Shown piece by piece: positions 22,441-23,881 of a DNA stretch of 64,000 bases. The notes below the pieces were generated by a model. That model was not told the origin of the DNA. It saw only the letters and a list, made by a program, of their open reading frames with translations, and did no database searches. Source of the stretch: Terriglobia bacterium (lineage in GTDB: Bacteria > Acidobacteriota > UBA6911); assembly GCA_020072565.1 (NCBI GenBank), contig JAIQGI010000013.1:1-64000 (forward strand), in the 5' to 3' direction. Both the position numbers and the translations under genes were made by a program. The first letter of the stretch is position 1. Each line of letters starts with the position of its first letter.

Positions 22441-22756
22441 TGCCGGGTAACAGCTCAGTCGTGCGTTTTCAACAGACCGTTCACCGACAGGTCTTCATCA
22501 ATCAATGGCCAGTGGATCCCGGTTTCTGAAAACCATCTATACCTTCCTGCGCGGCACGGTAGCCTCTCGCTGAATCCCTGAGGGAAATCTATGAAAACCG
22601 GCCGCCATGCTGACTGCAGGATCCAGATACGGATCTTCGGAAGATCGTCGATCCTGGGGCTTGTCAGAGGGCGATTTCCTGGGCCTCGTCACGTTGGCAG
22701 CCGGAAAAGCCAGGAAATGCAAAATCGAGCCTTTCAATTCTCAAAAACGGGTGACG

Positions 22757-22926
22757 TCCCAAATAACTTTCGGCTCCCCGCATTCGTCATAGCGCAGCTG
22801 TATAAACACCGGTGGCAGATCGAACTCTTTTTTAAGTGGATCAAGCAACACTTGCGAATTAAGGCTTTCTACGGCACCTCTGAGAACGCGGTCAAGACGC
22901 CAGATTTTGAGCGTCACCTGTTTTGA
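22757..22926 (+). pseudogene. IS4-type transposase C-terminal remnant
   Basis: The frame reads NNFRLPAFVIAQLYKHRWQI then ELFFKWIKQHLRIKAFYGTS, the conserved C-terminal block around the catalytic Glu of IS4-family DDE transposases. It then diverges (PDFERHLF) and stops where intact proteins continue about 60 residues. The upstream DDE core is missing from every frame. The surrounding 22441-23002 stretch holds no other gene; GGGTGACGTCCC occurs at both 22749 and 23031, perhaps an end sequence of the dead element. Confidence 0.8.
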
Positions 22927-23002: not shown

Positions 23003-23599
23003 CTATTCAACTTCTAATGGGACACTAGTGGGTGACGTCCCCGATTTCCATTCATCAGGCAAGGGAGTTGTCGGGATGCGGAGCGAGTCGACGAACCGGG
23101 TGAAGAATTCGTAGGCCGCCGCCACGGCCGCCAGTTCTATGATTTCACGGTCTATGAATGTGTCTCGTAGAGAGGCGTAGAAAGCGTCGTCAATCTCAAG
23201 CGCCGAACGATGCACGCGATCCGCGAAGCGGAAACCTAGCTTCTCGCGCTCCGTGAAGGGCCCATTCTCGAAGTCCCTCACGCCCTGGACCTGCTCCGCG
23301 GTTGCGCCTTTCTGCTTCGCCGAAGCAGAGTGGGCCGATGTTCAATAGTCGCAGTTTTGCAAAATCGCCACCCGGGTGGCCACGAGCTCTTTGTACCATC
23401 CCGGCAAAGCGCCCTCACCCATCAGCGGTTTTAAAAACGCAGCGATACCCATGGCGAGTTCGGGCGTATGAGCGATGGTCTTGAACATGTTGGGCACCAC
23501 GCCCCGCAGCTCGAGAAGTTGATCGTAAAGGGCGCCGATCTCAGGTGTGACTTCACCCCGCTCCAACATCCGGATGCGGGCTTTGATATCAGAGTTCAA
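23003..23599 (-). CDS. AhpD/CMD-like selenoprotein (C-x-x-Sec), 198 aa
   Basis: A carboxymuconolactone-decarboxylase/AhpD-like gene read through one in-frame TGA (23344-23342). N-terminal part: RMLERGEVTPEIGALYDQLL, LRGVVPNMFKTIAHTPEL, KELVATRVAILQNCDY; then TGA; then TSAHSASAKQKGATAEQVQG and a normal family C-terminus (FADRVHRSALEIDDAFY). The TGA sits exactly where relatives have the second Cys of the redox CxxC, giving CDYU (Sec about residue 86). Twelve bases after the TGA there is a perfect 8-bp hairpin with a GGC loop. A TTG start with GGAGGT fits best; an open frame reaches 23650. The last 15 residues may derive from adjacent IS DNA. Likely a peroxide/thiol redox enzyme. The alternative is a nonsense pseudogene. 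Confidence 0.8.
23311..23329 (-). promoter_or_regulatory. Candidate bacterial SECIS hairpin
   Basis: On the minus strand TCTGCTTC, loop GGC, GAAGCAGA form a perfect 8-bp stem. The loop begins 20 bases after the UGA and starts with GG, within the spacing and loop-G rules known for bacterial SECIS elements read by SelB. Confidence 0.7.
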
Positions 23600-23668
23600 G
23601 ACAAGCACCTCCGCAAAAACGGGGAGCGCCCCGCATGCGCTCAGACCCACGGTCTGAGCTTAAAGCCG

Positions 23669-23881
23669 TCACCCGCCCCCGCCGCCGCTGCTTGCGCCGC
23701 AGCCAATGCCCGAACCGGAAGAAATCCCGCCGCTTTTGCTGCTCCCGGACGTGGCAAAAGAAGAATAGATCTGCTCCAGTTCGCGACTGTGGCACATGGG
23801 ACAATCAGGCGGTTCCGATCCGAAAACAAGGGCCTCGAAGCGGTGGCCGCACTTCTTACAGATATATTCGAACAATGGCAT
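23669..23881 (-). CDS. FmdB family zinc-ribbon protein
   Basis: A 70-residue protein starting MPLFEYICKKCGHRFEAL, with CxxC pairs at residues 8/11 and 27/30 (CPMC), the standard FmdB-type regulatory zinc ribbon. The tail is Gly/Ser-rich (SSGSGIGCGASSGGGGG), as in many family members. It lies 69 bases upstream of the AhpD-like selenoprotein gene on the same strand, so the two probably form an operon. Family members are proposed regulators or chaperones of metalloenzymes; the exact role is unknown. Confidence 0.88.
   Translation of the reverse strand: MPLFEYICKKCGHRFEALVFGSEPPDCPMCHSRELEQIYSSFATSGSSKSGGISSGSGIGCGASSGGGGG

Follow-up and report, generated by a model that had tools for sequence, protein, structure and literature searches.

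A predicted AhpD-like selenoprotein gene in an acidobacterium, with orthologues bearing selenocysteine, cysteine or alanine/glycine at one site

The DNA analysed here (the window) is a stretch of 64,000 nucleotides at the beginning of a 158-kb contig from a soil bacterium (Terriglobia). The part considered below contains the following features:

22591-22926, IS4-family transposase remnant, adjoining the selenoprotein gene
23003-23599, minus strand, predicted AhpD/CMD-like selenoprotein gene (TTG start at 23599, stop at 23003-23005, 198 residues, motif Cys83-Asp-Tyr-Sec86)
23311-23329, minus strand, SECIS hairpin with an 8-bp stem and a GGC loop, supported by covariation and by its presence in 27/27 loci with TGA and 1/52 without
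23342-23344, minus strand, UGA codon 86, predicted selenocysteine (Sec); the column is TGA in 17/44 relatives inspected (window included) and in 27/80 named loci
23608-23612, minus strand, GGAGG ribosome-binding site of the selenoprotein gene, read from the sequence 8 nt before the TTG
23624-23642, minus strand, terminator-like hairpin and T-rich tail separating the selenoprotein gene from fmdB, a pattern match of a kind that averages 1.4 sites in shuffles of the region
23669-23881, minus strand, FmdB-family zinc ribbon (CxxC form; TIGR02605, 57.9 bits), the upstream neighbour

Concerning the reading frame, two minus-strand open reading frames (23342-23650 and 23003-23281) are listed in one common frame and become a single open frame when TGA is translated as Sec, the sole internal TGA being situated at 23344-23342. 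This TGA occupies the second Cys position of the CxxC, such that the motif reads C83-D-Y-U86-T-S-A-H90. The original prediction had described one in-frame TGA at this very position, splitting an otherwise intact frame that a normal annotation would report as two genes, and all of this is borne out; its coordinates were likewise correct, but it left the strand unstated, the gene being situated on the minus strand. A plus-strand reading of the same interval was rejected, as further stops are present there. The TTG at 23599, proposed from the start, is the likely initiation codon, with the GGAGG 8 nt upstream. Between the window copy and its relative L089, pN/pS amounts to 0.22 ahead of the TGA and 0.39 past it, and lower values were obtained for the pairs L090/L091 and L091/L092; judged by these ratios, both halves of the frame, before and after the TGA, are under purifying selection.

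Past the TGA, positions 23329-23322 and 23318-23311 of the minus strand form a perfect stem of 8 bp around the loop GGC (23321-23319), the stem beginning 12 nt and the loop 20 nt past the TGA, exactly as had been described before. The model of bacterial SECIS elements given in PMC13188914 comprises a UGA-to-loop spacing of 16-37 nt, a loop of 3-9 nt, an upper stem of 4-16 bp, a G among the first two loop positions and a minimum free energy of -7.5 kcal/mol or below. With a spacing of 20, a loop of 3, a stem of 8, a loop beginning with G and -10.5 kcal/mol for the centroid structure (the 8-bp stem alone), the hairpin falls within each of these limits, and the loop G is found in all 27 TGA loci. 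Among the 2010 TGA trinucleotides on both strands of the window, six possess a rule-fitting hairpin of 8 or more paired bases, and of these only the TGA of codon 86 combines a spacing of 20 with a loop of 3 nt. Folded as a single sequence, the hairpin has an unremarkable energy (z = -0.54), and the Rfam search around the hairpin gave no relevant match, only a single chance match that fell short of its gathering score.

The decisive support for the predicted SECIS element is comparative and does not come from single-sequence folding energy. Among nine TGA relatives, six pairs of the stem are altered on both sides by compensatory base changes; the covariation score is 0.511, compared to 0.190 in shuffled alignments, was reached in 0/500 shuffles, and does not exceed 0.169 in the slid controls. 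An intact hairpin accompanies 27/27 of the TGA codons, 1/32 of the Cys codons and 0/20 of the Ala/Gly codons, with one locus (L145) omitted from these counts and from the tree described below, being mis-registered at the motif. One Cys form (TGT; L146:3233-3796), in the genome of which selA was not found, is situated beside a perfect SECIS-like hairpin. From its sequence, this looks like a fossil SECIS left after a conversion of Sec to Cys, an event of a type described in PMC1794560.

Relatives from the phylum were inspected at the column of the TGA (n = 44, window counted): TGA stands precisely there in 17, the rest having mostly Cys or Thr codons and a few Ser or Glu codons. A scan of named genomes, run with a 4-row alignment, yielded 80 loci, nearly all from Acidobacteriota, with TGA in 27, Cys in 33 and Ala/Gly in 20 of them; the Cys tally includes the mis-registered L145, counted as TGC, as does the row "other, C" of the synteny counts. 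The downstream part is alignable in frame across relatives. A TGC misread as TGA had been named as a possible source of error; since the identical TGA occurs in independent genomes, a sequencing error is very unlikely. Concerning the residue expected in homologues, Cys or Sec was indeed found at the TGA column, but a sister clade carries Ala/Gly instead. More distant relatives of the CMD family (L045, L066, L069 [motif CxFU], L067, L068 and L070) also have a TGA at the equal column, followed by hairpins of other shapes, which suggests, as far as can be read from their sequences, that Acidobacteriota contain several additional subfamilies of CMD selenoproteins.

The genome, 7.46 Mb in 135 contigs at 98% completeness and 3.8% contamination, carries two copies each of selA, selB and selD, as well as one tRNA-Sec gene (selC) with UCA anticodon (73.5 bits), so that a search for these four genes, the absence of which would have spoken against a selenoprotein, found them all. 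One selD, recognized in an NCBIfam scan, is fused to nifS (L032:4913-7333, plus strand) and is situated at around 112.9-115.3 kb of the window's contig (C13), i.e., about 90 kb from the selenoprotein gene; because it lies on this very contig, the machinery is not merely contamination. NifS-SelD fusions are of a type called very rare (PMC2398784, PMC4561486). On another contig of the same genome (G000 contig C19, around 229.7-231.6 kb; L028:7736-9565, minus strand), a frame of 609 residues joins SelD to a C-terminal AhpD domain (CEPC). It belongs to a compact set selA - selD/AhpD - selB that duplicates the scattered sel genes of the genome. No further SelD-AhpD fusion was found among 149 relatives or, at E <= 1e-95, among 396 genomes of the phylum. 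In a survey of 2015, prokaryotic SelD fusions were on the N-terminal side only (PMC4561486), and SelD with a C-terminal AhpD domain is possibly a new fusion type.

The encoded protein scores 59 bits with the Pfam model CMD (PF02627; cut-off 23) and 38.4 bits with the AhpD core domain (TIGR00778; cut-off 27.8). Its predicted structure (mean pLDDT 93.5) exhibits the AhpD/peroxidase-related fold, the best structural matches being 2prr (Z 22.8) and 6k40 (Z 22.4) over around 180 residues, both AhpD-core and peroxidase-related; the debrominase Bmp8 is also among the matches (Z about 20).

In the phylogenetic tree, the loci of at least 47% identity form, together with the window, a single, fully supported clade of 40 rows, and this clade contains Sec forms (the window, L089-L092 and L110), Cys forms and Ala/Gly forms. 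That the orthologues split three ways, into CxxU, CxxC and SxxA/G as read from their sequences, is the unexpected part. The first Cys of the Ala/Gly forms is usually Ser, such that both redox residues are gone. No variation is seen at Lys70, Glu71, Tyr85 and His90 (numbered as in the window's protein) among 50 aligned sequences, and the Ala/Gly forms, under purifying selection themselves, retain Glu71, Tyr85 and His90. The direction of change was inferred from the outgroup clade, with its Cys and Sec states, the tree not being formally rooted.

For 51 genes the selA status of the genome is known: selA is present with 11/12 Sec, 4/19 Cys and 17/20 Ala/Gly genes, the counts for Sec and Cys taking in some genes of a more distant clade. 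Between Sec and Cys genes the difference in selA presence is significant (Fisher p = 0.0002), the rows being related, however, such that p overstates their independence. selA was not found in two TGA-bearing MAGs (G023 and G024) or in the genome of L154, which in draft genomes is weak evidence of absence. Sec forms are found in Sec-capable genomes, Cys forms for the most part in genomes lacking selA, and the Ala/Gly forms mostly in Sec-capable genomes. With the machinery lost, a change from Sec to Cys is ordinary; the loss of both redox residues in genomes still possessing selA is not, and is the most interesting point.

Concerning gene order, an outer-membrane beta-barrel protein (OMP) is encoded upstream in 3/5 Sec, 17/19 Ala/Gly and 1/14 Cys loci, and a class I/II aminotransferase downstream in 3/4 Sec, 10/18 Ala/Gly and 0/14 Cys loci; an amidohydrolase follows in many Sec and Ala/Gly loci. 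In its fuller form (L091:1144-12044), this cluster comprises an SDR, the outer-membrane beta-barrel protein, the AhpD-like protein (Sec or Ala form), the aminotransferase I/II, the amidohydrolase, a PALP enzyme (threonine synthase-like) and a GHMP kinase; the L099 version of this conserved acidobacterial cluster also contains a cupin. The gene of the window is situated outside the cluster occupied by most Sec orthologues, and the cluster is not evident in the window's genome, where the best aminotransferase match is just 39% identical. The neighbouring IS4 remnant is consistent with the gene having moved out of the cluster. Given both its position outside the cluster and this remnant, the expression of the window copy is uncertain.

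Taken together, the locus is best explained as a functional AhpD-like selenoprotein gene of an acidobacterium, with UGA86 predicted to be read as Sec (probability around 0.93). The sel genes, the recurrent TGA, the covarying hairpin and the purifying selection all argue for the selenoprotein that had been proposed. Gene structure, SECIS, Sec machinery, conservation and fold were computed; Sec insertion, catalytic roles and substrate are what we infer. The hairpin directly 3' of UGA86 would recruit SelB with Sec-tRNA(Sec), and decoding of UGA86 as Sec would yield a protein of 198 residues with the AhpD/CMD fold. How SECIS elements are recognized differs in part between species. AhpD itself employs a Cys-Cys-Glu-His relay. 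By analogy, the selenolate of Sec86 would probably attack, Glu71 and His90 assisting or activating the Cys83/Sec86 pair; Cys83 would then act as the resolving residue, converting the selenenyl intermediate into a selenenylsulfide that may be reduced by a cellular thiol system. The likeliest role would be the reduction of peroxide or other small substrates, with about even chances for peroxide reduction as the activity; the Ala/Gly orthologues and the catabolic appearance of the cluster make a different substrate quite possible.

The alternative that survives best is a variant of this explanation, with Sec insertion kept, according to which the protein is no peroxidase and acts on a pathway substrate, e.g., as a decarboxylase, an isomerase or a reductive dehalogenase-like enzyme, serving the metabolism of the OMP - AhpD-like - aminotransferase - amidohydrolase cluster. 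We regard it as a serious, if minority, possibility: most Sec and Ala/Gly orthologues are situated in that cluster, the Ala/Gly forms are maintained by selection together with their Glu, Tyr and His, and Bmp8 demonstrates a debrominase of the same fold; however, peroxidase-related and antioxidant AhpD-like proteins match the fold best, and the window's own gene is not in the cluster.

The FmdB zinc ribbon had been suggested as a functional partner of the selenoprotein, to which its adjacency on the same strand at a distance of 69 nt, as well as the FmdB-family CxxU selenoproteins reported in PMC2398784, might point. The suggestion found no support, and such a partnership seems improbable: FmdB-like genes are absent from the available flanks of all 89 related loci, the terminator-like hairpin separates the two genes, and the FmdB gene of the window is without TGA. 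More improbable still is a pseudogene split by a chance TGA or a sequencing error and followed by an accidental hairpin. The position of the window copy beside the IS4 remnant, away from the orthologues' cluster, and its somewhat higher pN/pS downstream of the TGA (compared to L089) would fit such an origin, but the recurrence of the identical TGA and hairpin in independent genomes largely refutes it and, together with the covariation of the hairpin and the purifying selection on the downstream codons, makes read error or pseudogene very unlikely. That UGA acts as a stop, as in the standard code, leaving an N-terminal product of 85 residues and a vestigial or separately expressed downstream part, is hardly credible, as this product would end within the active-site motif, the downstream part is alignable in frame and under purifying selection in relatives, and the hairpin is almost exclusive to TGA loci.

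Returning to the predicted selenoprotein, its orthologues constitute a natural experiment with Sec, Cys and Ala/Gly at one site, by which both the contribution of selenium and the need for redox chemistry become directly testable. As both redox residues are missing from a sister clade that occupies the same gene cluster, Cys/Sec catalysis cannot be essential in every orthologue. We tentatively consider a conserved non-redox core function, to which Sec chemistry has been added or from which it has been stripped: few lineages have Sec, and most others, Sec-capable yet changed from CxxU to SxxA/G, have kept Glu, Tyr and His. Furthermore, a gene split in two by standard annotation is now corrected.

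AhpD-like or CMD-domain CxxU selenoproteins are known from other bacteria, as the original prediction had stated; they were reported in 2005 (PMC1088965) and 2008 (PMC2398784) in the Sargasso Sea and GOS surveys, and a review of 2026 (PMC13188914) lists them under TIGR01926, PF02627, NF041238 and NF041047. With the proteins of the two surveys the present one shares the CMD fold, Sec at the second CxxC position and a SECIS just downstream, whereas it represents a distinct acidobacterial subfamily, the orthologues of which include Cys and Ala/Gly forms. The peroxidase-related model TIGR01926 is matched over nearly its full length with 61.0 bits, below its cut-off of 81.8. The best NCBIfam match by E-value, the YciW-related (seleno)protein model NF053654, spans residues 57-197 of the 215-residue frame, but its 66.1 bits are far under the equivalog cut-off of 310, such that the protein is a non-member. 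NF041238 (AhpD_rel_CFYUT) has a similar C-x-Y-U-T motif, here CDYUTSAH, but comprises 357 positions and is matched with 44.7 bits at a cut-off of 175. The structures 2prr (Ralstonia) and 6k40 (D. radiodurans AhpD) share the fold of the protein along 181 residues (Z about 22.5, rmsd 2.2-2.3), at an identity of only 22-23%. As its scores stay below the cut-offs of these three specific models, the protein is placed in a new, hitherto uncatalogued acidobacterial subfamily within the already known AhpD-like selenoproteins.
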